Origin: Bacteroidales bacterium
GTDB lineage: Bacteria > Bacteroidota > Bacteroidia > Bacteroidales > GWA2-32-17
Reading direction: 5' to 3'
Length of the DNA: 64,000 bases
Assembly: GCA_013314715.1 (NCBI GenBank)
Contig: JABUFC010000008.1
Coordinates: 1-64,000, forward strand
Within the stretch, counting starts at the first letter, position 1; each line of letters starts with the position of its first letter. Below, piece by piece: positions 18,171 to 36,874 of the stretch. The translations under genes and the position numbers were made by a program. The notes under the pieces were generated by a model. That model saw only the letters and a list, made by a program, of their open reading frames with translations. It had not been told where the DNA came from and ran no database searches.

Positions 18171-18234
18171 CGTATTAAAACTAAAAATTTGCTGCCTATC
18201 GAAAAATTTTACCACTAAACAAAAAAAAGTGGTT

Positions 18235-19245: not shown

Positions 19246-19265
19246 TAATTTTTTTTAATCATTGG

Positions 19266-19291
19266 CAACCCTACCATTTTTATTACGTCTT
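19266..19291 (+). promoter_or_regulatory. Candidate ECF-sigma (autoregulatory) promoter
   Basis: CAACC at 19266-19270, 16 bases of spacer, then GTCTT at 19287-19291. ECF promoters typically have an AAC-containing -35 and a GTC-containing -10 at about this spacing. It sits 13 bases before the second ECF sigma gene, where an autoregulated promoter is expected. I did not find this pair at other genes in the window. Confidence 0.45.
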
Positions 19292-19303: not shown

Positions 19304-19897
19304 ATGAAGGTTAACTGGCAAGATAACGATGCTGTGAGCAAGATTGTTGATGCATGTGTCAAGGGCGACCGCATGAGTCAAGAAATTTTATACAAATCGT
19401 TCTATGGCAAAATGGCAACCGTATGTATGCGTTATGCTAAAAACAAAGAAGAAGCCTATGATATTTTGCAAGAAGGATTTGTAAAAGTTTTTGAAAAATT
19501 GAAAAATTTCGAAAAAAAAGGTTCTTTAGAAGGTTGGATTAGAAGAATTATGGCGAATACTGCTATAGACCACATTCGCAAAAGGAAAGATTTTTATTTG
19601 TCATCTGACGATTCTTATGAATTGGATAGCATGGTAGATGATTCATCATTGGATATAGAATTAGAGCCGTTGGTTAACTTGAAGGTTGAAATTATTATAT
19701 CGTTAATACAAAATCTTTCGCCTGCTTACCGAACGGTATTCAATATGTATGTATTAGAAAATATGACGCACAAAGAAATCGCCGACTATTTGAATATCAG
19801 TGAAGGTACTTCTAAATCGAATCTAGCCAAAGCCAAACAAAAATTGAAAGAAATGGTAGAAACTTATATAAAATTACACAAGCATGAAGCCTTTTAA
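19304..19897 (+). CDS. ECF-type RNA polymerase sigma factor paired with an anti-sigma-like protein
   Basis: The 197-residue protein has region 2 (YKSFYGKMATVCMRYAKNKEEAYDILQEGFVKVFEKL, then GWIRRIMANTAIDHIRK) and region 4 (LSPAYRTVFNMYVLENMTHKEIADYLNISEGTSKSNLAKAKQKLKEM). The gene overlaps the next by 14 bases, as is usual for sigma/anti-sigma pairs. It is followed by the large SprB-repeat adhesin gene, so adhesin or T9SS genes are likely targets. A CAACC-N16-GTCTT element directly upstream suggests autoregulation. Confidence 0.9.
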   Translation: MKVNWQDNDAVSKIVDACVKGDRMSQEILYKSFYGKMATVCMRYAKNKEEAYDILQEGFVKVFEKLKNFEKKGSLEGWIRRIMANTAIDHIRKRKDFYLSSDDSYELDSMVDDSSLDIELEPLVNLKVEIIISLIQNLSPAYRTVFNMYVLENMTHKEIADYLNISEGTSKSNLAKAKQKLKEMVETYIKLHKHEAF

Positions 19898-21077
19898 TGA
19901 ACATTTACAGGAAAAACTCAATGCATATGAGTACCCATATCAAGAGGGCTCGTGGGAACTAGTTCAACGAAAGTTGAAAATACGAAAAATATGGAAATGG
20001 GGTAGAATTACTGTAGCTACAATTGCCGTTGTAGCTTCTTCAATCGTTATTTTTAATCAAATACAAAATCAAAAAGTAAATAATAGAGATCAGGTTTCAA
20101 AACAAAAAATTGAAAAAATAGATTCAAAAATATCACAAACTCCACAAATGTCGAATAAACAAAACGAAACATCATCTATTTATCATTCTGCTAAGGATAT
20201 AATAAAAAACAATAATAAAACGATTGCAGTTGATAACTCAAATATTTCTACAAAAAACATCGATGTTAATAGTAATAACCATGAATCAATAAACAATAAT
20301 GTAAACACCACCGTTACTTCTATAAATGTCAACTTTACTAAAAGCACGAGCCAAGGTTGTGTTCCCTTAGATGTTATATTTAATGCTAACGTAAATGCAA
20401 AAAATGTCGATTGTGTTTGGGATTTTGGCGATGGTAGCTATGCTTATGAATTTAACACTCACCATGAATATAAAAAAGGAGGAAAGTATAACGTAAGCCT
20501 TAAAGTAAAAACGAGCGATGGACAAATATTTACTTCAGAGCCACAAACCGTTCAGGTATGGTATGCACCTAAAGCTATTTTCGAATATTCAACTGAAGAA
20601 AATTGTATAAATTTAAAGAATCTTTCAAAACAATCGACATTTGTGAATTGGTACATCAACGATTCACTTGTAAGTGATGAGTCGACTCATTTTTGTTTTA
20701 ATAAATCTGGCAAAGCTGTTATTTCGTTATTAGTCGAAAATAAAGAAGGATGTATCGATTCAATTAGCAAAACCATTGAACTTGTTTATAAAATGCCGGT
20801 AAAATTTGCCAACGCTTTTACTCCCGATGGTGATGGTGTCAATGATTTATTTGGGCCACAGGTCCTAGATGAATCATTCTATAGTTTTAAAATGTTTATC
20901 TATAATAAGTTAGGCAAATGTGTTTATGAAGCAAATGGAAATCATGTATATTGGGACGGAACCGATATGAATACAAAACAACTATGTATGCCGGATGATT
21001 ATTTCTACAAGGTTTTAGTTGTTGATAAATTGGGTAATAAAAATGAATTTTCAGGTAAAATTCAATTGAAACGATAA
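19884..21077 (+). CDS. Anti-sigma-like membrane protein with PKD and gliding-type C-terminal domains
   Basis: The 397 residues show three parts. Residues 1-35 (FNEHLQEKLNAYEYPYQEGSWELVQRKL) resemble the short cytoplasmic helix of Bacteroidota anti-sigma factors (P-x-x-x-x-W...KL). One membrane segment spans about 38-58. Outside, after an Asn/Ser/Lys-rich spacer (60-145), comes a PKD domain with VWDFGDGS (about 150-225), an Ig-like stretch, and a gliding-associated C-terminal domain at about 310-397 (FANAFTPDGDGVNDLFGP, then MFIYNKLGKCVYE and WDGTDM). The same C-terminal type ends both giant adhesins. It overlaps the sigma gene by 14 bases. Holding the sigma factor and sensing envelope or export state is inference. 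Confidence 0.75.
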   Translation: MKPFNEHLQEKLNAYEYPYQEGSWELVQRKLKIRKIWKWGRITVATIAVVASSIVIFNQIQNQKVNNRDQVSKQKIEKIDSKISQTPQMSNKQNETSSIYHSAKDIIKNNNKTIAVDNSNISTKNIDVNSNNHESINNNVNTTVTSINVNFTKSTSQGCVPLDVIFNANVNAKNVDCVWDFGDGSYAYEFNTHHEYKKGGKYNVSLKVKTSDGQIFTSEPQTVQVWYAPKAIFEYSTEENCINLKNLSKQSTFVNWYINDSLVSDESTHFCFNKSGKAVISLLVENKEGCIDSISKTIELVYKMPVKFANAFTPDGDGVNDLFGPQVLDESFYSFKMFIYNKLGKCVYEANGNHVYWDGTDMNTKQLCMPDDYFYKVLVVDKLGNKNEFSGKIQLKR

Positions 21078-21112: not shown

Positions 21113-21658
21113 ATGAGAAAAGTACTTTTATGGATATCTGTTCTAATTGCGAGCAGTTTATTCGCTCAACAAGGTTTTGATTTGAAAAAATATGTTGCAT
21201 TTAAGTTTTATACCAATGGTATTAACGATGAAAAAACGGCAGATTACGTTGCTCGAACTTTAGAAAAATCTCAGTTGTCAACCTTCTCTGCGTTTAATTA
21301 TAAAGAAAATATCGGATATTCGATAGTGACTGATGCTTATTATGCTCATGAAATTGAAAAGTATATCAATAATATGATGAATGTACGTGTTGAAAGTTAT
21401 GAAATTGTTGAACTAACAGAAGATCTATTTTTAGATATATATTTAATTAAAGGAAATGCTTTATCTAGTAAGTCAAAGCAACTACCGCCATTTATTTCTA
21501 TGGGTCCATATACTCAGTTATCAAACGATTTATACGCATTAGCTAAGTCGATCTGGATAAAAAAGTATCCCGATGTTTACAATTCGTTTTTCCATTCTTC
21601 GCCACTAACCCCTGAACAAATAGAAGAACAAAATCGAAAGTTAAACCGAAAAAATTAA
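21113..21658 (+). CDS. Secreted protein of unknown function next to the SprB-repeat adhesin
   Basis: The 181-residue protein has a signal peptide (residues 5-17, cleavage near FAQ-Q). The mature part has a segment compatible with a small alpha/beta fold (KKYVAFKFYTNGINDEKTADYVARTLEKSQ... then GYSIVTDAYYAHEIEKYINNMM), like domains that compare residues of a heavy-metal-associated-like or POTRA-like unit, but without metal Cys. It lies 4 bases before the adhesin gene, so an assembly or chaperone role for the adhesin is possible. No family is recognised. Confidence 0.6.
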   Translation: MRKVLLWISVLIASSLFAQQGFDLKKYVAFKFYTNGINDEKTADYVARTLEKSQLSTFSAFNYKENIGYSIVTDAYYAHEIEKYINNMMNVRVESYEIVELTEDLFLDIYLIKGNALSSKSKQLPPFISMGPYTQLSNDLYALAKSIWIKKYPDVYNSFFHSSPLTPEQIEEQNRKLNRKN

Positions 21659-21662
21659 AGTC

Positions 21663-24600
21663 ATGAAAAAATATTTATTACTACTTGTTATATTTACCAT
21701 TTTTGGATTTATTGATGCATTTTCTCAATGCAGCAATTGCAATTCAAATTATCCTTCTGCTTTACAAACGATTACTCCAGGACAAACATTAACGGTTAGT
21801 TCTTGTGTATATGGTGGGGAATATTCTTATTATAGTGTAACATCGGGAGTTACATATACATGGCAAACCTGTGGTGATTCAGATTTTGATACACAGTTAA
21901 CTTTATTTCAGGGTGGAACTTGCGGCAGTGGAACTGTATTAGCAAACAACGATGATGGGTGTGGAACTCAATCAACAATAACTTGGACTGCTACTTTTAC
22001 TGGAACAGTAACTTTGTTATTGAGTCAATATAGTTGTGCTAATAACTCAACTTGTATGACACTTTCGTGGAGTGCAACGGGAGGAGGTAGTGGAGGAGGT
22101 GGTGGAGGAGCAGATTGTGCTCATGCCGACCCTTTTTGTACTGGTACTACCTATAATTTTCCAATGCAAACCAATAATGGAAGTGCAGAAACAGGACCAC
22201 AATATGGTTGTTTATGTGCTACCCCAAACCCCGTTTGGTATTATTTAAGAATTTCTCAATCCGGACCCATTGGTATTACTATTTCAAGTACTTGTGGTGA
22301 TATTGACTATGCTGCATGGGGACCATTTAGCTCTTTAACTTGTTCTCCAAGTGATTTAACAACTAACACTTCAGGTTGTGGAGGAAATTATTCAGCACCT
22401 AGTGGCAATATGGTTGATTGTGCTTATAGTGGTGCGGCAACAGAAGTTTTAGATATTTCTAATGCTTTGGTAGGTCAATATTATTTGCTTTGTATTACTA
22501 ATTACGCAAACTGTGTTGGTAATTGTATTTTTTCTCAAACAAGTGGTACAGGAGCTACAGACTGTAGTATTGTAACTTGCGATATAACAAACTTAACGGC
22601 CACGCCTTCGGCTTGTAATTCGGCTACTAACACATATTCTGTTTCAGGTACTATTACATTTAATGGGCAACCTACCACGGGTACGCTTACTATTACTGAT
22701 AATGCCGGACAAAGTCAAACGTTTAATGCACCTTTTACCAGTCCGATAAATTATACTATTTCAGGTATTACTGCCAATGGAGCGGCACATACAATTACAG
22801 CTCAATTTAGTAATGCACCTTCGTGTAATTTTACTGTAAATTATACAGCACCACCTGCATGTAATACATGTACTGCCAATGCTGGTCCAGATCAAACGGT
22901 ATGTGGATTGTCAGCAACATTAGGTGCAACAGGTGGGGCGGGATATAGCGCTTATCAATGGTCAAATGTACCAGGGTTAACTTTCAGCAATATTGCTTCG
23001 CCAACATCAACGGTTACAGCATCATCACCAGGGACATATACTTTAACTTGGAATGTAACGACTACCGCTGGAGTTACTTGTTCCGACCAAGTAGCTATTA
23101 CATTTGTGAATCCACAAGCAGGTTTTACATATAATGGCAATCAATGTGTTACAGGCAATAGTTATAATTTTACCAATACAGGTACTTCATCGGGAGCAAC
23201 GTATTCATGGACTTTCCCTAGTGGAAGCCCTTCTACATCTACAGCTCAAAATCCAACGGGCATAACATGGAGTACACCAGGAACTTATACTGTAACCCAA
23301 ACCGTTACTCAAGGTTCTTGTACCGCGACTTATTCTCAAATAATTACCGTTTATCCAAATCCTACTGCTAACATTACTCCTACTAATGTTACATGTTTTG
23401 GGGCTTGTAATGGGAGTGCTATAGCTTCGGGAAGTGGTGGAAGTGGATCATATTCTTACAGCTGGAATACCGGACCTACCTCGCAAACCATATCATCATT
23501 GTGTCCGGGGACTTATACCGTTACCGTTACCGATACATATGGTTGTAAAGGGACTGCTTCAGTAAATATAACTCAGCCTGCAGCACTCACATTAACGACT
23601 ACACGAACAAATCCTACTTGTAATGGAACTTGTAATGGAACTGCAAATGTTTCGGTTACCGGTGGTATAGGACCATTTAGTTATTTGTGGAGTAATTCTG
23701 GAAACACAGCGTCTATAAATGGTTTATGTGCTGGAACTTATACCGTAACAGTTACTGACCAAGCTTCGCCAGGTTGTACTCAAACAGCTAACGTTGTTTT
23801 AACTGATCCACCTGCTATGGTTTTATCTACCTCAAAAGTGGATGCAACATGCGGAGCAAACAATGGTTCAGCTACTGTAACAATAACTTCAGGTGGAACG
23901 CCCAATTACAATTATGCTTGGTCAAACGGTTCAACAACGAATAATACAACAGCTACCTCTAATACTATTAATGGTTTAGGAGCAGGGGCGTATACTGTAA
24001 CTGTAACGGATGCAAACGGTTGCAGCAAAACAACAATCGTTAATGTTGCTAGTTCGGGAGCACCAACTGCAACTATTACGGCAAGTACCAACCCTCTATG
24101 TAATGGACAATGTAATGGAACAGCTACCGTTTCATTAACAGTTACTACAACACCTCCATATAATTATTATTGGTCGAATGGTTCACAAACATTAGGAACA
24201 GCTTCGACTTCAAATAGTGTTAGTAATCTTTGTACAGGTTCAACTTCAGTAACGGTTACCGATAATTTAGGTTGTAGTGCAGTAACATCTGTAAATTTAA
24301 CTGCTCCTTCAGCTCTTGCTCAAAGTACTACTTCAGTTAGCGCACATTGTGGACATAACGATGGAAGTGCTACTATTAATGTTTCTGGAGGAACGCCCGG
24401 ATATACGTACCAATGGAATGCAGCTGCAGGTAGTCAAACTACTCAAACAGCAAATAATTTACTGCCTGGTAGTTATACTGTAACGGCTACCGATGTTAAT
24501 GGTTGTACCATAGTAGGGAATGTTACTGTTGGTAATTTAGCAGGTGTGGTTGCTTCTATTGCTTCGCAAACCAATGTTAGTTGCAATGGAGGTAATAATG

Positions 24601-27600
24601 GTACGGCAACTGCAACGGGAACCGGTGGCAATTTACCCTACGGTTATTTGTGGCCTGCTTCTGCTGGAAATCAAACAACGGCAACTGCAACTAATCTTGC
24701 TGCTGGTAGTTATGTTGTTACTGTAACCGATGCCAATGGTTGTACCTCAACCTCAACCGTTACAATTACACAACCTTCTGCAGTTACAGCAATTGCTTCC
24801 GTTGTATCAAATGCATTGTGTAATGGATCGTGCAATGGATCGGCCAATGTTGTGGGAGGAGGTGGAACTTCGCCTTATACCTATTTATGGTCAAATACAC
24901 AAACTTCTGCAACGGCAACCGGTTTATGTGCAGGAACCTATAATGTTACAGTACGCGATGCCAATAATTGTTCGGCTGTAACTTCTGTAAATATAACTCA
25001 ACCTACAACGTTAACAGCAAGTGCTAGTTCGATTTCGGCTCATTGTAACCAAAACGATGGCTCTGCTTCAGCATCGGCAAGTGGAGGAACACCGCCATAT
25101 AATTATAATTGGAATAGTGGTCAAACAGTACAAAATATTTCTGGAATAGTTACTGGTAGTTATACTGTAACTGTAACAGATGCTAATGGATGTACTGCAG
25201 TCGCTAATACGGTAGTAGGAAATATTCCGGGTGGCACTGCAACGATAGCTTCTTTAAACTACACTTCTTGTAGTGGTGTTTGTGACGGGTCGACTTCAGT
25301 GTCTATGTCGGGTGGTACATTGCCCTACAACTACTTGTGGTCAAATGGAGCAACTTCGTCCTCAATATCGGGTTTATGTGCTGCTATTTATACTGTTACT
25401 GTAACTGATGCAGCCGGTTGTACAGCTACAGCGACTGCCGATGTTAAATCACCAGATCCTTTAATTTTATCATTTAATGTGAATGATATCCTTTGTTTTG
25501 GTGCTTGTAATGGTAGCATAGATGTAACTCCAACAGGAGGAACTTTGCCTTATTCATATAATTGGAGTAATAGTGTTTTTGTGGCCAATAATGACAATTT
25601 ATGTAGTGGCACTTACACTGTAACAGTAACTGACAGTCATGGTTGTTCTGCAACAGGATCAAGAACTATTAGTTCTATTCCTCCAATAACACTTTCGGCT
25701 GTTTCTACTGATGCTAATTGTAATCAATCCAATGGTGCTTTGGATTTAACTGTTACTAATGGAGCTTTCCCGTTTACGTTTAATTGGTCGAATGGTGGAA
25801 CAACAGAAGATTTAACTAATATTCCTGCAGGTGTTTATAATGTAACGGTAACAGATGTTAAAGGTTGTACAGCAACGGGAAGTTTTACAGTTTCTAATAT
25901 AAGCGGACCTCAAGCAAGTATATCGTCATTTACAAATATTACATGTAATGGTTTGTGCAATGGTGTTGCAACGGGTCAAGTTACTGGAGGAACACCTCCA
26001 TTTATATATGCTTGGAGCAATGGTCAAACAAGTCAAACAGCAACAAGCTTATGTTCAGGATCATATACATTTAGCGTTACTGATGCTGCTGGATGTGTAA
26101 GTACAGCAAATGTTACTATTACTCAGCCAACACCTCTTCAAATAGTAAATATCTCTAGTACATCGCCAGCTTGTAATGGAGATTGTAACGGTACAGCAAG
26201 TGTTATTGTTTCGGGTGGAACAACGCCTTATACTTACCAGTGGACAGGTGGTTCTCCTTTTGGTGGCAATTCTCCGACTACTGCATCAACAGGAGGTATA
26301 TGTAGTGGTATGTTAACCGTAACGATTACCGATGCGAATGGTTGTACCGTAACTGGAAGTACAGGTGTAGTTGAGCCAGCTATTTTGTCGTTAGTCCCTA
26401 ACTCAACACCGGAATCTTGTTCGGGGGCACATGATGGAACTGCTTCTGTTGTCCCTGCTGGTGGTACAGTACCTTATACATATCAATGGTCGGCAAATAC
26501 AGGTGGACAAACAACCTCTACTGCATTTAATTTAGCTTCGGGTAGTTATTCTTGTACAGTTACCGATGCACATGGCTGTACTGTTAGCATTCCTGTTAAT
26601 GTTACTGGTCCCAATCCAATGGTATTTAATAATATTACTAGTACCGACATCCCTTGTTACCAAGCAAATAATGGAACCATTTCAGTTAATGTGGGTGGTG
26701 GTACTCCTCCTTATAGTTACCAATGGACAAATTCGATTGGAACTTATGCTTCTACCAATCAAAATATTGGTAATTTACCAGCTGAAACGTATTTTTTAAC
26801 CGTTACTGATGCTAATGGATGTTACATTACTACTAATGTTGTGATAAATCAACCTCCAGCATTACAACTAAATTTAATTAAAACAGATGAAACATGTTAT
26901 CAATTTTGCAACGGAACTATTCAAGCCAATGTATCGGGTGGACAAGTTCCATATAGTTATTTATGGTCAAATGGAGCGGTAACTTCATCATTAAATAATT
27001 TATGTCCGGGTAATTATGGTGTTACCGTTACCGATCATAATGGTTGCACTATTTCAGGAAATGTTACGGTTATCGGTCCGCCATTGTTGCAAATAGATGT
27101 AGTTAGTATAGTGCCAGCAACTTGTGGACAGTCCAATGGAGAGGCAACCATAAGTTTCCAAGGTGGGACAACGGGTTATAGCATACAATGGTCAACAGGA
27201 GGAAACTCAGTTCATGAAACGGGTATGCCAGCTGGAAATCACACGGTAACCCTAATTGACCAAAATGGGTGTACAGCAACACAACAAATTTCGATTCAAA
27301 ATTTAACAGGACCTAGTATAACTTCGGTTGTTTCAAGTCCTGTTTCTTGTGCAGGTTTTGCCGATGGAGTAGCCATTGTTAGTTATACTCCATCAAATCC
27401 TCCTGCTCCACCATATATAACAACTTGGAACAATGGCATGAATGGTGATACTATTACAGGTTTAGCAGGTGGAACTTATTATGTTACTGTTCAGGATGCT
27501 AATGGTTGTATAACTGCTGGTAATGTTGTAGTGCAAGAACCCACGCAATTTGTTTCCGTAGTTAGTGGAACCACTCATAACCATTGTTATGGTGAATGTA

Positions 27601-29819
27601 TTGGTACGGCTAGTATTTTAGCGGGTGGTGGTACTCCTCCTTATACTTATTCGTGGTTAGGTATTGGGCAGACGGGCTCAAGTGCAACTGGTTTATGTGC
27701 TGGAACTTATTCTGTTGTAGCTGTAGATGCGAGAGGGTGTACTTCAGTAAATACAGTTACTATAAATGAGCCTCCCGCTATTACAATTAATGGAACTACT
27801 ACTGATGTTTTATGTAATGGTGGAAACAGTGGAATAGTATCCATCTCCGTAAGTGGTGGAACACCTGTATATCAATATGTATGGCAACCTCCTGCCTTTG
27901 GTACCACTTCGGTTATAGCAAATATGCCTGCCGGTACATACACGGTTGTAGTTACTGATAGTTGGAACTGTTCAAATACTGCTAGCTTTACCATTAATCA
28001 ACCCGATCCCATCGTTGTTTATACATCGTCAACCCCAGCCCATTGTGGCGATAATAATGGAACTGCAACTATAGATTCTATTACAGGAGGAGTTCCCTCG
28101 TATACTTATTTATGGTCGCCAGGAAATATGACAACCAATCATGTAACCGATTTAGCTAGTGGAATTTATCAGTTGATAATAACTGATGCAAATGGCTGTA
28201 CACAGGTAACTCCTGTTCCTGTTAGTGAAATATATCCACCAGAGCAAATAAGCTTTAGTAAAACAGATGCATTATGTTATGGCAGCTTTGATGGAACTGC
28301 TACAGCAACAGTTAATGGTGGATTAGCTCCATACTCATATCAGTGGAGTAATGGCCAAACAACTAACCAAGCAGTAAATTTAGGAGCAGGAACTTATAGT
28401 GTAACTGTTACCGATAATAATGGTTGCAGTATAGCAAACAGCGTTACCATAAATCAACCTAACCCAATTATTGTCTATGCCAATGGAAGTGATACAATAT
28501 GTATGGGTAATTACAGTGTTAATATAACTGCAAATGCTTCAGGTGGAACTCCACCTTATACTTTCACATGGACAGGACCCGATTTAACCAACCCAAATTC
28601 TCAAGTTCAATTAGTCTCACCTGATTCTACTACCAATTATTTTGTAAATGTATATGATGCCAATGGTTGTGCTTCGTCTATACCTGGAAGTGTTACAGTA
28701 TATGTTTATCCGCCTATTACAGCAACTATTTCTAACGATGTAGTTATTTGTTCGGGCGATATGTATCCTATTCAAGTAAATGCACAAGGCGGTAAACCTC
28801 CTTATACTTATATATGGAACATTGGAAATGGGAATCCAAATTTAGTAACTCCTAGTGATACAACTACTTATACAGTTGAGGTTCACGATGCTTGTGGTAC
28901 TCCACCTGCCACTGCTTCAATGACAATTTTTGTACAAGAGCCTCCTCATATTATTCGTCATCCACGTTTCCAAAAAGGTTGTGTGCCTTTATTAGCTAAT
29001 TTCGATTGTTTGGTTGATCCTGCTTCACAACCCGTTACTTACTCTTGGAATTTTGGTGATCCGTCTTCGGGCTTATTAAATACATCACAAGATAGTGTAA
29101 CATCGCATCTGTACGGGATACAAGGGAATTATGATGTTACATTAGTGCTTACTTCTTCGTTTGGTTGTCAAACTACACAAATTTATAATAACTTAGTGCA
29201 GGTATTCCCTTATCCTCAGGTTGATTTTACTTATAGTCCAACAGAAAACATATCAGCTATTAATGGTGATGTTTGGTTTGCTGCTCAAACCGATGCTAGT
29301 AATCAACTTATATGGAATTTTGGAGATGGTAGTGTGGCTGCCGGACAAATGAATCCAATGCATACCTATACACAACCTGGTATATATGAAATTCTTCTGA
29401 TTGCTCGAAATGGTGAGGGTTGTGCAGATACTGCTATCCATGCTTTAAAAGTAAACGAAGTATTTACTTTATGGGTACCTACTGCGTTTACACCCGGAAG
29501 TGGAAATGGTAACGCATATTTCTACCCTCGCGGTTTAGGAATTGATTCGAGCGATTATTATTTGGCTATTTTCGATCGTTGGGGACAAATGGTTTTTGAA
29601 ACCCGAGTATTTCCACCAGCTACTAATTTAACACCAAGCGAGGTAATGTCTTTATCGGCTACGCAATTACAGTGGGAACCGGGCGGTTGGAATGGTGGTT
29701 ACATGAATGATGTAAGCAAAATTGTTCCTGTTGGTACCTATACTTGGTATGTTAAAGTTAAAGAAAAAGATACAGGTTATATCCACGAAAAAACTGGTCC
29801 CGTAACAGTGATACGATAG
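21663..29819 (+). CDS. Giant SprB-repeat surface protein with gliding/T9SS-type C-terminal domain
   Basis: The 2718-residue secreted protein begins with a signal peptide (residues 3-22), then a beta domain (25-138), a Gly-rich linker (about 139-152) and a second Cys-rich domain (153-300). Immunoglobulin-like and PKD-like domains lead to 22 SprB repeats (about 578-2270) of 65-80 residues each: a starting Cys, a GG-x-P-Y-x-Y-x-W core, a T/S-Y-x-V-T-V-T-D strand and a closing G-C. Then follow Ig-like and two PKD domains (SWNFGDPSSG, IWNFGDGSVA). Last is a gliding-associated (CHU_C) C-terminal domain (VPTAFTPGSGNG, then FDRWGQMVFET and the end VTVIR), the type B T9SS signal. SprB-family proteins are mobile adhesins in gliding Flavobacteria; here the role could be adhesion. 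A terminator follows. Confidence 0.88.
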   Translation: MKKYLLLLVIFTIFGFIDAFSQCSNCNSNYPSALQTITPGQTLTVSSCVYGGEYSYYSVTSGVTYTWQTCGDSDFDTQLTLFQGGTCGSGTVLANNDDGCGTQSTITWTATFTGTVTLLLSQYSCANNSTCMTLSWSATGGGSGGGGGGADCAHADPFCTGTTYNFPMQTNNGSAETGPQYGCLCATPNPVWYYLRISQSGPIGITISSTCGDIDYAAWGPFSSLTCSPSDLTTNTSGCGGNYSAPSGNMVDCAYSGAATEVLDISNALVGQYYLLCITNYANCVGNCIFSQTSGTGATDCSIVTCDITNLTATPSACNSATNTYSVSGTITFNGQPTTGTLTITDNAGQSQTFNAPFTSPINYTISGITANGAAHTITAQFSNAPSCNFTVNYTAPPACNTCTANAGPDQTVCGLSATLGATGGAGYSAYQWSNVPGLTFSNIASPTSTVTASSPGTYTLTWNVTTTAGVTCSDQVAITFVNPQAGFTYNGNQCVTGNSYNFTNTGTSSGATYSWTFPSGSPSTSTAQNPTGITWSTPGTYTVTQTVTQGSCTATYSQIITVYPNPTANITPTNVTCFGACNGSAIASGSGGSGSYSYSWNTGPTSQTISSLCPGTYTVTVTDTYGCKGTASVNITQPAALTLTTTRTNPTCNGTCNGTANVSVTGGIGPFSYLWSNSGNTASINGLCAGTYTVTVTDQASPGCTQTANVVLTDPPAMVLSTSKVDATCGANNGSATVTITSGGTPNYNYAWSNGSTTNNTTATSNTINGLGAGAYTVTVTDANGCSKTTIVNVASSGAPTATITASTNPLCNGQCNGTATVSLTVTTTPPYNYYWSNGSQTLGTASTSNSVSNLCTGSTSVTVTDNLGCSAVTSVNLTAPSALAQSTTSVSAHCGHNDGSATINVSGGTPGYTYQWNAAAGSQTTQTANNLLPGSYTVTATDVNGCTIVGNVTVGNLAGVVASIASQTNVSCNGGNNGTATATGTGGNLPYGYLWPASAGNQTTATATNLAAGSYVVTVTDANGCTSTSTVTITQPSAVTAIASVVSNALCNGSCNGSANVVGGGGTSPYTYLWSNTQTSATATGLCAGTYNVTVRDANNCSAVTSVNITQPTTLTASASSISAHCNQNDGSASASASGGTPPYNYNWNSGQTVQNISGIVTGSYTVTVTDANGCTAVANTVVGNIPGGTATIASLNYTSCSGVCDGSTSVSMSGGTLPYNYLWSNGATSSSISGLCAAIYTVTVTDAAGCTATATADVKSPDPLILSFNVNDILCFGACNGSIDVTPTGGTLPYSYNWSNSVFVANNDNLCSGTYTVTVTDSHGCSATGSRTISSIPPITLSAVSTDANCNQSNGALDLTVTNGAFPFTFNWSNGGTTEDLTNIPAGVYNVTVTDVKGCTATGSFTVSNISGPQASISSFTNITCNGLCNGVATGQVTGGTPPFIYAWSNGQTSQTATSLCSGSYTFSVTDAAGCVSTANVTITQPTPLQIVNISSTSPACNGDCNGTASVIVSGGTTPYTYQWTGGSPFGGNSPTTASTGGICSGMLTVTITDANGCTVTGSTGVVEPAILSLVPNSTPESCSGAHDGTASVVPAGGTVPYTYQWSANTGGQTTSTAFNLASGSYSCTVTDAHGCTVSIPVNVTGPNPMVFNNITSTDIPCYQANNGTISVNVGGGTPPYSYQWTNSIGTYASTNQNIGNLPAETYFLTVTDANGCYITTNVVINQPPALQLNLIKTDETCYQFCNGTIQANVSGGQVPYSYLWSNGAVTSSLNNLCPGNYGVTVTDHNGCTISGNVTVIGPPLLQIDVVSIVPATCGQSNGEATISFQGGTTGYSIQWSTGGNSVHETGMPAGNHTVTLIDQNGCTATQQISIQNLTGPSITSVVSSPVSCAGFADGVAIVSYTPSNPPAPPYITTWNNGMNGDTITGLAGGTYYVTVQDANGCITAGNVVVQEPTQFVSVVSGTTHNHCYGECIGTASILAGGGTPPYTYSWLGIGQTGSSATGLCAGTYSVVAVDARGCTSVNTVTINEPPAITINGTTTDVLCNGGNSGIVSISVSGGTPVYQYVWQPPAFGTTSVIANMPAGTYTVVVTDSWNCSNTASFTINQPDPIVVYTSSTPAHCGDNNGTATIDSITGGVPSYTYLWSPGNMTTNHVTDLASGIYQLIITDANGCTQVTPVPVSEIYPPEQISFSKTDALCYGSFDGTATATVNGGLAPYSYQWSNGQTTNQAVNLGAGTYSVTVTDNNGCSIANSVTINQPNPIIVYANGSDTICMGNYSVNITANASGGTPPYTFTWTGPDLTNPNSQVQLVSPDSTTNYFVNVYDANGCASSIPGSVTVYVYPPITATISNDVVICSGDMYPIQVNAQGGKPPYTYIWNIGNGNPNLVTPSDTTTYTVEVHDACGTPPATASMTIFVQEPPHIIRHPRFQKGCVPLLANFDCLVDPASQPVTYSWNFGDPSSGLLNTSQDSVTSHLYGIQGNYDVTLVLTSSFGCQTTQIYNNLVQVFPYPQVDFTYSPTENISAINGDVWFAAQTDASNQLIWNFGDGSVAAGQMNPMHTYTQPGIYEILLIARNGEGCADTAIHALKVNEVFTLWVPTAFTPGSGNGNAYFYPRGLGIDSSDYYLAIFDRWGQMVFETRVFPPATNLTPSEVMSLSATQLQWEPGGWNGGYMNDVSKIVPVGTYTWYVKVKEKDTGYIHEKTGPVTVIR
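23394..28475 (+). repeat. Array of 22 SprB repeats (coding)
   Basis: The repeats are about 230 bases each and well diverged at DNA level, so they are old. Reading the cysteines, 10 repeats (nos. 1, 2, 4, 7, 9, 10, 12, 13, 16, 19) carry C-x3-C at the start and L/I-C-x-G/A before the T-Y strand. The other 12 lack both. Every repeat ends with G-C or N-C. Confidence 0.85.
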
Positions 29820-29875: not shown

Positions 29876-30877
29876 CTAAAACTTTGCACAAGGAATTATT
29901 TTTGAACGATGCTTTTTAGCTTTATGAGGATTGTAAAACTGATACGTTAAAGAAATTTCATTGCTTCCTCCCGTTTTATAAGTTAACCACGAAATAGTTG
30001 CATCGTAGCTATATGCAATGTCGAAGGTTTTAAAATGAATGCCAGCAAGAAAACATAGGGCATCGTTATTAGGATAACCAGCTTTATAATGTTTTAACAT
30101 TGGAATACCTCTATAATAGATACCTGCAAAATAGTTGGGTGTTTTATAAATAGCACCTATATCCAATTGATCAAATTTTGCTTGGAATTTATACTGAAAA
30201 AGTCCTATAATTACTGGTTTATCAGTTTTTTTGCCAGAACCGCCATGTTCGAAAATATAAAATGTTTTAGCTGCATGAATAGAATATTTTATGGGTAATC
30301 GGCTCTCATAACCGAGATAAGATTGATTGGGTCTGTTTAGATGGTCAATGGTTATTCCAATAAAGTGATTGTTTGAGTATAATAATGTGCCCCATGATAT
30401 ATCTAAATACGATTGTCGTTCAGGTAAAATTGTTTGAATACTAGTGGATGCGCCTCTTAATAATTGGTCGCCAAAAATGAGCTTGTCGAATGTTAATGAA
30501 CGATAACCATAAACTGCTTTTATTCCGGAGCTTATAGTCCAATAGCGGTCAAATTTATAATCATAAGCATAATCGATTCCAATAAATTTATTTCCAAAAT
30601 TCATTGAACCTGCATTGTCTGAGGCTAAAATGATTCCAACGGCACTTCTGAAATCAAAAAAATACTGATCGTATGAGACTAAAAAACTGTTGTATGTTCC
30701 TGGAATGTTCCACCATTGGTTACGGTAAATCATAGAAAGTCGTGAATCGCTGTTTGCACCTGCAAAAGCTGGATTCAAATAGAGTGGGGCAGACTGGAAT
30801 TGTGTAAAATGAATATCTTGAGCGATTAGACGCAGGGTGCTAAAAAAAATAAATCCATATGTAAAAAACTTTTTCAT
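29876..30877 (-). CDS. PorP/SprF-family type IX secretion outer-membrane protein
   Basis: The 333-residue protein has a signal peptide (residues 1-19) and the family start QDIHFTQFQSAPLYLNPAFAGANSDSRLSMIYRNQWWNIPGTYNSFLVSYDQYF, followed by beta-barrel strands. SprF-like proteins are needed for delivery or attachment of a SprB-like partner encoded next to them. It overlaps the upstream 1963-residue SprB-repeat gene by 4 bases (ATGA), so the pair is co-translated. The basic tail (KAKKHRSKI) and single C-terminal Cys are unremarkable. Confidence 0.92.
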   Translation of the reverse strand: MKKFFTYGFIFFSTLRLIAQDIHFTQFQSAPLYLNPAFAGANSDSRLSMIYRNQWWNIPGTYNSFLVSYDQYFFDFRSAVGIILASDNAGSMNFGNKFIGIDYAYDYKFDRYWTISSGIKAVYGYRSLTFDKLIFGDQLLRGASTSIQTILPERQSYLDISWGTLLYSNNHFIGITIDHLNRPNQSYLGYESRLPIKYSIHAAKTFYIFEHGGSGKKTDKPVIIGLFQYKFQAKFDQLDIGAIYKTPNYFAGIYYRGIPMLKHYKAGYPNNDALCFLAGIHFKTFDIAYSYDATISWLTYKTGGSNEISLTYQFYNPHKAKKHRSKIIPCAKF

Positions 30878-33800
30878 CGTATTAGCAATACATCTCCTTT
30901 CTTTTCTATTTTGCGTCCATCAATAAACCGAGCTTTGGCTTGATAAACATAAACATCTTGTTGACATAATTTCCCTTTGTAATAACCATCCCAACCAATT
31001 TTAATATCATTCGTTTCGAAAATTAATTCGCCCCAGCGGTTAAATATTTGCATATTGAATTCAGCAACTCCTTTTGATACAGGGAAGAATATATGGTTTG
31101 AATAATCTGTTTCGGAATAATAGCCTCCATTAGGACCGTTAGGATCGGGAGTAAAAGCATTTGGAAAAACGATGTCGCCACTAACAGATATGTTTTTATA
31201 GGCGGTATCGGTACATTGATACATATTAGTTGCTACTAACATAATGGTATAGCTGCCAAAATTATCATAATAATGCAAAGGATTGGGATTAGTAGATGAA
31301 TTACCATCGCCAAAATCCCAAAAATAAGCTACTGCTCCATTACTGAGGTTGGTGCAAACAACCGGGTCGTTAGGGAGGTAATATATATCTTTGTTAGTAG
31401 TAAAGTTGGCAGTAGGATTTTCGAAGATATAAACAGGCAATGGATTTTGGTTGTTATCATTTATACAACCCATATTGGTTTCAACTTCCAGACTGACATA
31501 ATACGTTCCGGGTGTAGTAAAAGTATGAGTCGGGTTTTGAACAGTGGATGTATTTCCATCTCCAAAATTCCATAACCATCTGTTAATATAATCATATGGA
31601 GTAGTTGAGCTGTCTGTGAAATTTATTGTAACGGGAACACATCCTTGAAATACATCCGAATAAAAATTAATCTGAGGTGGAGTTTTAAATAAAACAGTTA
31701 TAGAATCAACAATATGAATATCACAACTATTGCTTACAGTAACATAATAGGTTGTGGGTTGACTGGGTACAATTATAAATGCTCCCGGACCTGGTCCTAA
31801 ACCATTACTCCAAGCGTAATATAACGTGTCATAATGATTAGCAGAAGATGTTACATAAATTAGTGAACTATTCCCTGGACAGATAGGGCTATTTGCAAAA
31901 AGATGAACATTTTGAGGGTAAAACTCCTTTACAACTAAATTGCAAGTATCTGGAATTCCTTCGCAACCAAGACTATCGAAAGCAATAACGATATAAGAAC
32001 TTGAATGCGGAGGTGAAACGGTTATGGTTTGGCCAAAAAGATTGTTATTCCAATAGTAAAAATAATTACCACTTCCGCCGATAGCTGAAGCGCTCAATGT
32101 AGCACTTTCACCCTGACAAATAATTAAAGTATCTGTTATCGTAGTGATTACTTGAGTTGGGTTTGAAAGACTGCATGAGTCAATCCATTGACAACCTAAT
32201 GCATCTTCAACGCTTACGTAGTAAATTCCCTTAGTTAAATTGTTAGCAAAGAAGCTAGTTTGTGTAGGCATTGTGTTCCATGTATAATTATAAGGAGGTG
32301 TGCCTCCTGTTACTGTTACCCATGCATATCCATTGTTTCCATTATAACACGTTGGATTATTAGTACTTATAACTCCAGTCAAAGGTTGTGGCTGGGTAAT
32401 GGTTCCGTTTAAAACAACTGAACAGGCATTTGCATCTGTAATCGTTACATTGTAGCTCCCTGCATAAACATTGGTAGCTGTTTGTGTGTTTTGCTGTGGA
32501 ACTGTATTCCAAGAAAAGGAGTAAGGTGGCGTTCCGCCCTGAACAATTGCCGAAATTTCACCGGTAGAAGAACCATTACAATCTACATTTCTTATAACTT
32601 GAATATTCCCACTGAGAGGAGTAGGAGAATTTATTTGAATATTTTCAGATGCAACACATTGATTGGCATCAAAAACCGAAACAGTATAATTTCCTGAAGG
32701 AAGATTGCTAACAGTAGGTGTTGTTGCACCCGATGGAATCCATATATAAGTATAGGGTGTCGTTCCCCCGCTAGCTGTAACTGAAACAATACCATCTGTA
32801 CTGTTGTTGCAATTTGTAGGACTAGAAGTGGCATTAATGGTGAGTGGCTCTATCGGACCACTAATATCAATACTAATAGTAGCACTACAGTTGTGACTAT
32901 CAGAAATGGTACACGAATAAGTTCCCGGTGATAAATTTGAAATTGAAGGAGATGTTTGGTTGGTGTTCCAGTGATAAGTATAAGGAGGTGTGCCACCATT
33001 GGCACCAAGTAAAATCATACCATCATTAGCACCATAACAGTGAACATTTTCTTTTTGAAGGATGATAGGTATAATTGGTGTTGGCTGATTGACCTGGATG
33101 CTGCTAGAAATATTACAACCTAAACTATCAGTCACAGTAACATAATAAGTCGCAGCTAAAAGATTTGAGTAAGTTTGAGTATTTCCACCGCCCGGATTCC
33201 ATAAATAAGAATAAGGAGGAACTCCTCCCGAGCAGAAAGCTATAACACTGGCATCGCTACTATGATAGCAATTAGCATCGTTCTTTGTTAAAAAAATGCT
33301 CATGGGAGTTGGCTGAGTAAGAATAATAGATAAACTTATTGCACATCCTTTTGAATCTGTAATATACACGGTATGAGTTCCTGAAGATAAATTATTGATT
33401 TGTGAAGAAGTATAGTTTGTTGGCGACCAAAGATAATTATAAGGTGGGGTGCCTCCATTTGTTTGAATGGAAATACTACCATCATTTCCGTTGTAACAAC
33501 TTACGTTTTTAGCAGATAACACTTGAGCCTGTAAAATTTGTGGTTGGTTTATTTGCACGAAAGTTTGTTCGGTACAATTATTTGCATCGGTAACAGTAAC
33601 ATTGTATATTCCTGGGGTTAAATTGGTAATGGTTTGTAAAGTGTAGTTGCCTGGTTGCCAGAAGTATGTATAAGGAGGTGTTCCACCTTGAGCAAAAACA
33701 TTTGCTTGTCCATTGGATGAGCCGTTACATGAAGCATCTGTTTTATTACTGGCTAACTGAATAGCTGAGGGTTGAGTAATCTCTGCTGTTTGTGTAGCAA

Positions 33801-36765
33801 TGCATCCGTTAGCATCTATTACTGATATATTAAAAATTCCTGCAGATAGTCCAGTGGCAGTTGAAGATGAACCTCCATAAGGATACCAGCTATAGTTATA
33901 AGGGGGGGCTCCACCGCTTGCATTTACACTGATACTTCCATTGTTCCCTCCAAAGCAAGATACATTGGAAATGGAAGAAATGGTTATGGTGGGCGAACCT
34001 ATATCATTGACTAAAACTGAAGCACTATTGCTACAATTCATAGCGTCCGTAACGGTTACGTTATAAACTCCTGAAGAGATATTATTAATGGTTGAATTTG
34101 TATAATTTCCCGGAAACCAGTTGTAAGTATAGGGAGGATTCCCTCCTGAAACAGTTGCTGAGGCAGATCCTGTTGAATTTCCACATAATGAAGCTACTGA
34201 AGATGTAGAAATATTAATGGCATCAGGTTCGCTCAGTGTTGCAAAGGATGTCGCTGTGCATCCATTATTGTCTGTAATAGTAATAGCATAATTACCGGCA
34301 GTAACATTACTTAATGAAGGAGAGTTAATGGATGGAATATTCCATGTATAAGTATATGGTGGTGTACCTCCGGAAACAACAGAATTAATGTTTCCGTTAT
34401 TTCCGCCATTACATGAAATGTTTGTGTTAAATAATTGAACAGTTAATGGCAAAGATGGCTGAGTTATATTTACATTTTGCTGAATAATACAATTATTACC
34501 ATCTGTTATAGAAACAAGATAATTTCCTGCTGCAAGATTGCTTCCAATACTTGTATTTCCTCCGTATGGTTGCCATGTATAGTTATATGGAGGAGTACCA
34601 CCTAAAACAGAAATGCTAGCAGAACCATCATTGCCGCCATAGCAACTTACATTATGAGTCCAGTTGATACTAGAAGTTAATGGAGGAGGAGAGGTTAATT
34701 GAAAATTATAAACAAAAGCACATCCATTGGCATCATAAACAGTTACAGAATAATTTCCTGCTACAAGATTGTTTGCACTGGACTGGTTCCCTCCATATGG
34801 AGACCATACATAAATATATGGTGGAGTTCCTCCTTGGGCATTTACTATAGCAGAACCGTTTGTAGAACCATAGCATGTAGGATTTGAAGTTGTAACAGTT
34901 GCATTTAGCTGTGGTGGATCGGTTAATTGAATGGTTGTAGTTTTTATGCATCCTTTGTTATCTGTGATAGTTACAGTATAATAACCGGAATTGAGGTTTT
35001 GTATATTTGCTCCATTATAATTAGAGGGTTGCCAATTATACGTATAAGGTGGTGTACCACCAGTAACATTTAATTGTATAGAACCAGTATTTGACTGAGC
35101 ACAAAGAGGATTTTGTGTTGAGGCTTGAATTGTTAAACTGTCTGGTTGATTTATGGTAATATTATTTGAAAATGTACAGCCTTTACTATCGGTAACGGTA
35201 AAACTAAAATTTCCAGGAGATAAATTAGAGACATTATTCCCAACGGCGCCATTTGACCATTGAACAAGATAACCTGGAGTTCCACCAACAATGTTGACAA
35301 TTGCATTGCCATTATTCCCACCATAACAACTCGTTGGATTTGTAGTTGCAAATGCCTGTAATTGTGGTGGTTGTGCAATCGATGTTGATTGAACAAGGCT
35401 ACAACCTATCCCATCGGTGATGGTTACAGTATAATTTCCGGCTGCTAACCCGGAGATATAATTTGACGTGTTTGAATTACTCCATAAATATGAATAAGGT
35501 GGGTTTCCTCCACTAATATTTACTTGTATGTTTCCATCGGCAGCTTGATAGCAACTAGCAGGTTGGTTAATAAATTGAACATTACCGGTAAATGGCAAAA
35601 AATTAATTCTGACTGTATCAGAAACGGCGGGACAAGAGCCATTTCCAGTAGAGGTTAATATCAAATTAACGTATCCATTATTGATTTCGCTTGCAGTAGG
35701 GAAATATACCGGATTTAATACCTGATTAGATGGCAGAAATATTCCATTTCCACCACTCCATATTCCACCCGCAGCGGATATAACAGTTCCATTTAATTGA
35801 ACAGATGATGATGAAATACAAACATTTTGGTCGTTACCGGCATTAACCTGAATGGGGCTAGGATATGAGGAAACCGTAATGTTTGTTGAAACCGGAGGGC
35901 AGTTGCTTGCATCTTCTAAAATAACAGTATAGCTTCCTACTCCTACATTAATATTTTGAGTCATTTGACCGGTATTCCATGTATAACTATATGGTGGTGT
36001 TCCTCCAGACCCGATTGCTGTTAATGTTAAAGAATTAGTTCCAAAGCATAAAATGGCAGGATTAGGTTGAATTTGAACATTAAGGGTAGGATTAAATGTA
36101 ATTCTTACAGTATCGCAAAATGGAATGGTAGAACAATTGCTTTCAATGATTCCACAAACTTGATAATCAACATACGGTGGATAATTGGTTGTTGCAATAA
36201 CTTGTGAACTTTCGCATCCGGAAGGGCAAGATAAAAAATGATTATAAGCTCCAAAATTTCCAGGATAAATGGAATTAATGGTTATTGACGATGGGTTTAA
36301 ACCTGTCGTTGATATGGTGCCAATGCAACCTTCATTTAATGTGATATTACCAGATACAGATGGTGCAGGAATGGAAGTAATACTATATTGGTTGGTGTTA
36401 TTTCCAGGTTTGCAAAAAGTTAAAATATGGGGTCCGTAGCCATTAAGACAGATAGGTTGTCCAACAGCAACAGGTGGTCCGCAATTTATCTGATAAAACA
36501 TAGAACCACCTGGAACAGCTCCGGAATAAATGTTAAATAAAATACCTTGGCTTTCTGGGTTTAGGTAAATGACAAATTCAACGCATACATCAGGATCTGA
36601 TGAATTACAACAAAGACCTAAGCGTTGAATGGATGGACTAATCCAAGTTGTATCAGAATTAGTAGATAAATCAACTGTAAGAGAAGGAACAATGGGTGAA
36701 CAATTTTGAGCATGAGCATTTAAAAAAAATAATAATCCCAATAATATCAGCAATCTACCTATCAT
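30874..36765 (-). CDS. Giant SprB-repeat surface protein with T9SS type B sorting domain
   Basis: I start at the ATG at 36765 (MIGRLLILLGLLFFLNAHAQ, 1963 residues); the frame also opens at a TTG four codons upstream. After the signal peptide comes a Cys-rich head of about 220 residues, a first diverged repeat, an Ig-like insertion (about 305-395), and then 15 contiguous SprB repeats (GGTPPY-x-Y-x-W ... VTITD-x-x-GC). Near the end are two PKD domains (RWLWNFGDGNTS, AYFWDFGDGNSS) and the C-terminal signal domain (VVFPNAFTPDPNGPNGG, then MQIFNRWGELIFET and a KKGDVLLIR end). The partner PorP/SprF gene overlaps its stop. It is likely exported by T9SS and anchored on the surface as an adhesin. All its repeats are of the two-cysteine class. 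Confidence 0.9.
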   Translation of the reverse strand: MIGRLLILLGLLFFLNAHAQNCSPIVPSLTVDLSTNSDTTWISPSIQRLGLCCNSSDPDVCVEFVIYLNPESQGILFNIYSGAVPGGSMFYQINCGPPVAVGQPICLNGYGPHILTFCKPGNNTNQYSITSIPAPSVSGNITLNEGCIGTISTTGLNPSSITINSIYPGNFGAYNHFLSCPSGCESSQVIATTNYPPYVDYQVCGIIESNCSTIPFCDTVRITFNPTLNVQIQPNPAILCFGTNSLTLTAIGSGGTPPYSYTWNTGQMTQNINVGVGSYTVILEDASNCPPVSTNITVSSYPSPIQVNAGNDQNVCISSSSVQLNGTVISAAGGIWSGGNGIFLPSNQVLNPVYFPTASEINNGYVNLILTSTGNGSCPAVSDTVRINFLPFTGNVQFINQPASCYQAADGNIQVNISGGNPPYSYLWSNSNTSNYISGLAAGNYTVTITDGIGCSLVQSTSIAQPPQLQAFATTNPTSCYGGNNGNAIVNIVGGTPGYLVQWSNGAVGNNVSNLSPGNFSFTVTDSKGCTFSNNITINQPDSLTIQASTQNPLCAQSNTGSIQLNVTGGTPPYTYNWQPSNYNGANIQNLNSGYYTVTITDNKGCIKTTTIQLTDPPQLNATVTTSNPTCYGSTNGSAIVNAQGGTPPYIYVWSPYGGNQSSANNLVAGNYSVTVYDANGCAFVYNFQLTSPPPLTSSINWTHNVSCYGGNDGSASISVLGGTPPYNYTWQPYGGNTSIGSNLAAGNYLVSITDGNNCIIQQNVNITQPSLPLTVQLFNTNISCNGGNNGNINSVVSGGTPPYTYTWNIPSINSPSLSNVTAGNYAITITDNNGCTATSFATLSEPDAINISTSSVASLCGNSTGSASATVSGGNPPYTYNWFPGNYTNSTINNISSGVYNVTVTDAMNCSNSASVLVNDIGSPTITISSISNVSCFGGNNGSISVNASGGAPPYNYSWYPYGGSSSTATGLSAGIFNISVIDANGCIATQTAEITQPSAIQLASNKTDASCNGSSNGQANVFAQGGTPPYTYFWQPGNYTLQTITNLTPGIYNVTVTDANNCTEQTFVQINQPQILQAQVLSAKNVSCYNGNDGSISIQTNGGTPPYNYLWSPTNYTSSQINNLSSGTHTVYITDSKGCAISLSIILTQPTPMSIFLTKNDANCYHSSDASVIAFCSGGVPPYSYLWNPGGGNTQTYSNLLAATYYVTVTDSLGCNISSSIQVNQPTPIIPIILQKENVHCYGANDGMILLGANGGTPPYTYHWNTNQTSPSISNLSPGTYSCTISDSHNCSATISIDISGPIEPLTINATSSPTNCNNSTDGIVSVTASGGTTPYTYIWIPSGATTPTVSNLPSGNYTVSVFDANQCVASENIQINSPTPLSGNIQVIRNVDCNGSSTGEISAIVQGGTPPYSFSWNTVPQQNTQTATNVYAGSYNVTITDANACSVVLNGTITQPQPLTGVISTNNPTCYNGNNGYAWVTVTGGTPPYNYTWNTMPTQTSFFANNLTKGIYYVSVEDALGCQWIDSCSLSNPTQVITTITDTLIICQGESATLSASAIGGSGNYFYYWNNNLFGQTITVSPPHSSSYIVIAFDSLGCEGIPDTCNLVVKEFYPQNVHLFANSPICPGNSSLIYVTSSANHYDTLYYAWSNGLGPGPGAFIIVPSQPTTYYVTVSNSCDIHIVDSITVLFKTPPQINFYSDVFQGCVPVTINFTDSSTTPYDYINRWLWNFGDGNTSTVQNPTHTFTTPGTYYVSLEVETNMGCINDNNQNPLPVYIFENPTANFTTNKDIYYLPNDPVVCTNLSNGAVAYFWDFGDGNSSTNPNPLHYYDNFGSYTIMLVATNMYQCTDTAYKNISVSGDIVFPNAFTPDPNGPNGGYYSETDYSNHIFFPVSKGVAEFNMQIFNRWGELIFETNDIKIGWDGYYKGKLCQQDVYVYQAKARFIDGRKIEKKGDVLLIR
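32146..35553 (-). repeat. Array of 15 contiguous SprB repeats (coding)
   Basis: Each repeat is about 75 residues with the core GG-x-PPY-x-Y-x-W and an ending T-D-x-x-G/N-C. None has the C-x3-C start or the L-C-x-G motif seen in part of the convergent protein, although isolated extra cysteines occur. A sixteenth, diverged repeat precedes it at about 36,050. Confidence 0.85.
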
Positions 36766-36874
36766 TTTTTTTTCCAATTATACGATAATTTAAATTTTAA
36801 AGATACAACTAAACTTAAAAAAAGTATAAATAAACAATTTAATAATTAGTTTATCATTTCTGAGTATAATAATA

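Follow-up and report, generated by a model that had tools for sequence, protein, structure and literature searches.

A putative Dma-like anti-sigma factor of the Bacteroidales with a type IX secretion sorting domain in place of the outer-membrane barrel

In the genome of a Bacteroidales bacterium, an ECF sigma factor gene overlaps the gene for a single-pass membrane protein, which we read from its sequence as a Dma-like anti-sigma factor whose barrel has been replaced by a domain of the type IX secretion system (T9SS). The pair lies in the window, the whole stretch of 64,000 nucleotides that was analysed (contig JABUFC010000008.1). Computation supports the pair itself, its conservation, its domain architecture, an autoregulatory promoter, an adhesin regulon, and the loss of the tryptophan of the RWG motif from the C-terminal sorting domain (CTD). 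The features of the locus are collected in Table 1.

Table 1. Features of the sigma/anti-sigma locus and its neighbours, in window coordinates.
Feature	Position	Strand	Basis and remarks
Predicted sigma-dependent autoregulatory promoter GCAACCCTACCATTTTTATTACGTC	19265..19289	+	-35 GCAAC, -10 CGTC; 14 bp before sigma start
197-aa ECF sigma factor, resembling ECF21 in its neighbourhood	19304..19897	+	Pfam/NCBIfam, sigma trees
Probable single-pass anti-sigma factor, 397 aa, PKD + Ig-like + T9SS type B sorting domain	19884..21077	+	ORF, Pfam/NCBIfam, AlphaFold2
Predicted cytoplasmic anti-sigma segment, residues 1-36	19884..19991	+	hhalign to barrel-type anti-sigmas; modelled helices 4-13 and 23 onward
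Transmembrane helix, residues 42-60	20007..20063	+	Hydropathy, positive-inside; inside modelled helix 23-63
Disordered periplasmic tether, residues 66-143	20079..20312	+	pLDDT <50 throughout
PKD domain, residues 149-226	20328..20561	+	Pfam, AlphaFold2 model
Second Ig-like domain, residues 233-300	20580..20783	+	AlphaFold2 model
Type B CTD (CHU_C/TIGR04131), residues 305-397	20796..21074	+	Pfam, NCBIfam; RWG motif reads K-L-G, residues 342-344 (20907-20915)
Exported 181-aa protein, third operon gene	21113..21658	+	No Pfam family; conserved position, partial homology
SprB-repeat adhesin, 2718 aa, with type B CTD; predicted to belong to the operon and to be a target of the sigma	21663..29819	+	23 SprB repeats, CHU_C
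PorP/SprF shuttle	29876..30877	-	PF11751 2.8e-47, TIGR03519 1.3e-55; pairs with 1967-aa adhesin, not anti-sigma operon
1967-aa CHU_C adhesin of PorP/SprF pair	30874..36777	-	CHU_C; no promoter match upstream

The sigma factor has regions 2 and 4 only of sigma-70, as expected of an ECF sigma. Sigma70_r2 (3.5e-16, residues 29-95) and Sigma70_r4_2 (2.1e-16, residues 130-181) were matched in Pfam, and sigma70-ECF (8.1e-29) in NCBIfam. Its ORF shares 14 bases (19884-19897) with that of the anti-sigma protein, and an overlap was present in 24/28 sigma/anti-sigma pairs. GCAACCCTACCATTTTTATTACGTC is the sole exact promoter match inside the window. The 2718-aa adhesin is encoded on the same strand, two genes downstream of the anti-sigma gene, the intervals being 35 and 4 bp. 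Most main-clade loci have a same-strand homologue of this adhesin 3' of the anti-sigma gene, and most main-clade relatives have a small exported protein at the third-gene position. Another ECF sigma gene, without an adjoining anti-sigma gene, is found upstream (18229-18828); a homologue occupies the same upstream place in several genomes of the family.

The anti-sigma protein contains one hydrophobic segment, and a second was predicted in 0/28 homologues. Charge places the N-terminus inside, the mean net values among the 28 homologues being +3.6 (cytoplasmic side) and -0.3 (periplasmic side). A cleavable signal peptide was not apparent from the sequence, as the hydrophobic segment begins only at residue 42, after a conserved pair of helices. 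The AlphaFold2 model (28 homologues) has helices at residues 4-13 and 23-63, the second of which contains the only membrane segment. The tether has a pLDDT of about 31-34 in most blocks, and the β domains (149-397) are mostly above 90. PKD_4 (2.3e-12, residues 154-224) and CHU_C (8.2e-14, residues 307-395) were matched in Pfam, and the C-terminus matched TIGR04131, the T9SS type B sorting domain of NCBIfam (3e-13). The CHU_C and TIGR04131 scores of 51.9 and 49.7 bits exceed the curated cut-offs of 27 and 35. These results confirm the gene layout, the 14-base overlap, the helix, the single membrane segment, the PKD domain and the gliding-type C-terminal domain of the first-pass annotation. The likeness that it saw between this last domain and those of the adjacent adhesins was borne out as well, since both adhesins carry CHU_C, the 2718-aa one with a weak Pfam match (6e-4). 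A FecR domain was matched by Pfam neither in the window protein nor in the tally of 28 homologues, and a FecR-type or zinc anti-sigma factor was ruled out because Pfam found no such domain. PDB and Foldseek searches returned no solved anti-sigma factor of this kind; the matches were generic Ig, PKD and adhesin structures.

Full-length homologues of the anti-sigma protein were found in 8/10 searched genomes of the window's family, each directly 3' of the orthologous sigma gene. An unbiased survey was then made of 247 genomes of the order using the anti-sigma profile alone, leaving the sigma factor out of the search. Few candidates were scored per genome, so absence from a given genome is weak evidence. 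An ECF gene stands immediately upstream on the same strand for 35/38 full-length homologues among the matches listed. The exceptions are G143, the second copy in G150, and G162, in which the sigma gene is on another contig. The original proposal that such proteins always stand behind an ECF gene is thus nearly true, though not strict; a lack of sigma neighbours near most homologues was looked for and was not what the listed matches gave. The same sigma, anti-sigma and promoter were found in L269, which belongs to another order of the class. A chance fusion or an assembly chimera was ruled out, since the architecture recurs across many families and in that other order. Apart from one barrel-type neighbour, a genome scan with back-translated peptides gave nothing but PKD adhesins. 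The T9SS component SprA was found in 232/247 genomes, which is too common for its presence to be informative about a link to the T9SS; none of the 38 listed full-length matches fell among the 15 SprA-negative genomes. In distant families (L044, L046, L047, L050, L051, L054, L056 and L057), the pair is preceded by conserved genes, whose products resemble, as judged by eye, an MltG-type membrane protein and a phosphohexomutase.

Dma proteins consist of an anti-sigma segment, a transmembrane helix, a disordered tether and a barrel, in that order, and are encoded beside an ECF21 sigma factor (PMC13088901). The genes 3' of 87 sigma genes related to that of the window were sorted into 28 that end in CHU_C, 49 that are long and without CHU_C, and 10 that are short or broken. 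CHU_C lies at the very C-terminus in 28/28 of the first set and outer-membrane barrel families were matched in none, while OMP_b-brl_2 was matched by 35/48 of the long CHU_C-less proteins behind sister sigmas. When the CHU_C set was compared by hhalign with 48 mostly barrel-type proteins, only residues 1-36 or so aligned (36 columns, probability 96.4, E 1.1e-9); the comparison set comprised proteins of this order rather than B. thetaiotaomicron Dma1/2 themselves. Because the alignment is confined to these residues, the N-terminal segment appears to be common to both sets and the C-terminus exchanged. The window sigma falls in the same tree as the sigmas that precede barrel-type anti-sigmas, a matter of tree placement rather than of an ECF21 model score.

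The window protein is like the Dma1/Das1 and Dma2/Das2 systems of B. thetaiotaomicron (PMC13088901) in its upstream ECF gene, N-terminal anti-sigma segment, single transmembrane helix, long disordered tether and a C-terminal module related to the outer membrane, and its N-terminus is shared with the barrel-type sister proteins of this order. It is unlike them in having no β-barrel; PKD, Ig and a T9SS type B CTD are found instead. The reported outputs also differ, those of Dma1/2 being functions in vesicles and polysaccharide use (PMC13088901) and those of the window sigma being predicted T9SS adhesins. Without the barrel, the protein is best regarded as a variant that would work like a Dma, and not as a member of that group. 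With the homology of its N-terminus to the Dma-type anti-sigma end and the operon linkage in 35/38 listed matches, the identity that was first proposed for it gains support, and it is very probably the anti-sigma factor of the adjoining sigma, the binding itself being predicted.

The C-terminal module appears to have changed more than once. In a tree of 93 sigmas, those linked to CHU_C fell in three groups of 27 rows (support 100/98; the partner of two rows could not be assigned), 13 rows (97/94) and 2 rows (100/99). At least three changes of C-terminal type are needed to account for the well-supported branches, and an earlier tree of 87 rows agrees. These could also represent fewer gains combined with some losses. 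The smallest group, L103/L117, is a separate sigma lineage with CHU_C anti-sigmas that have no PKD domain. Another anti-sigma form of 196-262 aa was seen behind related sigmas in L074, L105, L107 and L116, with a similar N-terminus and transmembrane helix followed by a small, confidently modelled β-sandwich. The sandwich resembles DUF3244 and T9SS type A CTDs (Foldseek 8gl8_D, 8qb1) weakly, in no case significantly.

The promoter was used to predict the regulon. A relaxed GCAACY-N15-CGTC motif lies upstream of 27/28 main-clade sigma genes, compared with 0.1% of shuffled regions; with a slightly different pattern, 4/58 of the family's other sigmas were matched. In the genome of the window there are 11 sites, one of them the sigma's own, and 3 for the reversed pattern. 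Of the ten others, seven lie 15-55 bp before the start codons of exported proteins, two of these (C25:104 and C37:2717) being less certain as they overlap hairpin-like sequence. The remaining 3/10 are background-like and lie within long frames of the opposite strand. All four targets unbroken by contig ends encode CHU_C adhesins, of 1418, 1845, 1773 and 815+600 aa; the fourth seems to be split. Small exported proteins of 140-200 aa with no assigned family often precede the regulon adhesins (C12:32928, C24:48952, C44:18862 and window 21113-21658) and are possibly dedicated adhesin partners.

Similar proteins follow matching promoter sites in G001 and G003, both sister species, and type A T9SS cargo is among the targets in other families. 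The reversed-pattern control was exceeded in 15/23 main-clade genomes, order-wide counts being informative mainly in AT-rich genomes. Because the promoter sites precede such genes and an adhesin lies in the predicted operon itself, the output of the sigma is predicted to be T9SS cargo, above all type B adhesins, a prediction from sequence that we hold with high confidence. It lends support to the feedback circuit on surface adhesins put forward in the first-pass annotation. G001, a 97% complete assembly of the same genus, has seven promoter sites before similar adhesin genes, and the main-clade sigma and anti-sigma were not found in it; either another sigma may also read the promoter or the assembly misses the pair. 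Among the barrel-type loci, 11/49 stand upstream of sequences like the window adhesin (L084, L086, L087, L093, L108, L109, L113, L118, L119, L121 and L122), so control of adhesins may be an older trait of the group.

The sorting domain of the anti-sigma protein differs from that of ordinary cargo in the RWG motif. The tryptophan of the RWG motif (window residue 343) is present in 2/45 anti-sigma CTDs compared with 40/42 ordinary CHU_C substrates (Fisher p 7e-20, which overstates independence as CTD sequences are related). Neither large CHU_C group has the residue in any member (0/13 in the second), and only L103/L117 keep it. The F-x-P loop, W-D-G, the strand tyrosine and the terminal G-x-V are retained. 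As the RWG tryptophan is lost while the other motifs are kept, we infer that the domain serves for contact rather than for ordinary export, though the motif comparison fits a domain with a different partner as well as one that docks and is not exported. The loss also supports, at the level of sequence, the original view that a protein anchored in this way would not use the domain for normal export.

The T9SS exports folded proteins. The protein might be a real substrate that is cut near the membrane, so that the PKD-CTD portion is exported and the sigma freed, as a T9SS counterpart of the exported anti-sigma factor FlgM. The type B CTD passes the curated cut-offs, as such a substrate should. 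We nevertheless consider this very unlikely, given that the tryptophan is missing from 43/45 anti-sigma CTDs and present in nearly all substrates, and that no cleavable signal peptide is apparent. In F. johnsoniae all five conserved CTD motifs are each needed for secretion (PMC12618676). RWG probably corresponds to motif B of that work by its position, motif B being the strand motif between loops A and C, whose letters are not spelled there. If so, its alteration abolished secretion of the SprB CTD (PMC12618676), which counts further against export.

A second alternative takes the PKD, Ig and CHU_C domains as borrowed from an adhesin, either for ligand binding or as periplasmic structure, so that the protein would sense a periplasmic or surface ligand and be unconnected with the T9SS. 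Carbohydrates and proteins are frequent ligands of PKD and Ig domains, and the missing tryptophan and the divergence of the anti-sigma CTDs would agree with such a use. Yet CHU_C occupies the extreme C-terminus in 28/28 and keeps its other motifs, it occurs on this type of anti-sigma in three sigma lineages, one of which has no PKD domain, a PorP/SprF gene adjoins in one sub-clade, and the regulon is T9SS cargo. This alternative is accordingly rather unlikely in our estimation.

The PorP/SprF genes point to a possible docking partner. PorP/SprF barrels bind type B CTDs, which stay uncleaved (PMC9143113), and the usual gene order is substrate then shuttle (PMC12618676). In one sub-clade (L030, L126, L128 and L129), PorP/SprF is the very next gene after the anti-sigma gene. 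It was directly after the anti-sigma gene in 0/49 barrel-type loci, and none is present in the window operon. If the CTD docks on a separate barrel, the two together would be the Dma barrel in two-piece form. The window protein resembles type B substrates that work with PorP/SprF (SprB/SprF, PG1035/PorP; PMC9143113, PMC12618676) in its C-terminal CHU_C/TIGR04131 domain after PKD/Ig and in the adjoining PorP/SprF of the sub-clade. It differs from them in its anchorage in the inner membrane, by an uncleaved transmembrane helix behind a cytoplasmic segment, and in the loss of the RWG tryptophan. In a tree of the CTDs of its own genome, the anti-sigma CTD fell outside the clade of the regulon CTDs, and it reached at most 34% with any of them or of the genome's other CTDs. 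Because of this placement, no single shared shuttle is indicated; competition with the regulon for one specific shuttle was dropped, and competition for the general apparatus was kept. The genome encodes 17 PorP/SprF proteins, and four of the genes have no adjoining CHU_C gene (C16:19743, C42:13804, C7:43246 and C27:8650). These four are candidates for the shuttle of the orphan regulon adhesins or for anti-sigma docking.

We infer the following mechanism, in which the binding of sigma by residues 1-36, the contact of the CTD with the T9SS or PorP/SprF, the proteolysis and, above all, the sign go beyond what was computed. The locus would be a Dma/ECF21-type switch with PKD, Ig and the T9SS type B sorting domain in place of the outer-membrane β-barrel. 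The sigma would be held at the inner membrane by the N-terminal 36 residues, and the disordered tether, whose length of about 80 residues suffices to span the periplasm, would present the sorting domain. This domain, which has the fold of a substrate and has lost the tryptophan, would most likely escape export and dock on the type B apparatus, either at a PorP/SprF-type barrel or at the SprA translocon. Its docking state would decide whether the anti-sigma is cleaved and the sigma released. The freed sigma would switch on its own operon and the T9SS adhesin regulon, whose products would compete for the same apparatus. In the favoured sign, a free apparatus would engage the sentinel and the sigma would be released; the adhesins then made would occupy the apparatus and the sigma would be silenced again. 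Release when the apparatus is free is favoured because the opposite sign would make cargo synthesis self-reinforcing. We give the whole circuit, in which a Dma-like sentinel would monitor the T9SS type B pathway and control T9SS adhesins, slightly better than an even chance, and its sign is less certain than the rest.

With the opposite sign, the anti-sigma would be protected from proteolysis while its CTD is docked at the outer membrane, and loss of docking through envelope damage, a shortage of shuttles or competition by cargo would free the sigma. Adhesin production would then be self-reinforcing or induced by damage. Contact between FoxA and FoxR protects the anti-sigma in that system (PMC11637429), Dma proteins reach the outer membrane and their loss activates the sigma (PMC13088901), and a domain that stays docked would be in keeping with the missing RWG tryptophan. 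On the other hand, a regulon of cargo genes would make the competition self-amplifying, so that another brake would be needed; the sequence decides nothing about sign. We regard this version as unlikely, if still a credible contender, and prefer release from a free apparatus.

Two known systems share parts of this design. In PorA-PorXY-SigP of Porphyromonas gingivalis (PMC7712824), a CTD-bearing protein also signals to an ECF sigma that governs T9SS genes. PorA, however, is a surface protein that acts through a two-component system, whereas the CTD-bearing protein of the window would itself be the anti-sigma factor, with cargo genes as its targets. In FecR/FoxR signalling (PMC11637429), too, the anti-sigma crosses the membrane once, and contact of its periplasmic C-terminus with a barrel protein of the outer membrane is expected; the window protein differs in having no FecR domain, and no TonB-dependent receptor was seen in the locus. 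A T9SS precedent for coupling of secretion to transcription of this kind was not found in the literature. No anti-sigma factor with a T9SS CTD was described in the literature searched, of which the coverage of Dma and ECF classification was incomplete, so an earlier mention is possible.

The Bacteroidota invest heavily in the giant surface adhesins that the type IX system exports, and the locus bears on how such cargo is matched to export capacity. It joins an ECF sigma, an anti-sigma that resembles cargo and a regulon of type B adhesins defined by its promoter into one circuit, which is accessible to experiment in a genetically tractable flavobacterium. The Dma class is broadened as well, in that the outer-membrane module appears to be exchangeable (β-barrel, type B CTD and perhaps a type A-like CTD), which suggests the status of the outer membrane or of secretion as the common input. 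The GCAACY-N15-CGTC promoter lets the regulon be read from sequence in many genomes. Since the anti-sigma ends in an altered export tag and the predicted targets of the sigma are adhesins of that kind, the locus suggests that the cell tunes how much adhesin it makes to the state of the export machine. We tentatively propose that a tethered, export-disabled cargo tag may report the load on the type IX apparatus to RNA polymerase and so set the output of the cargo genes.
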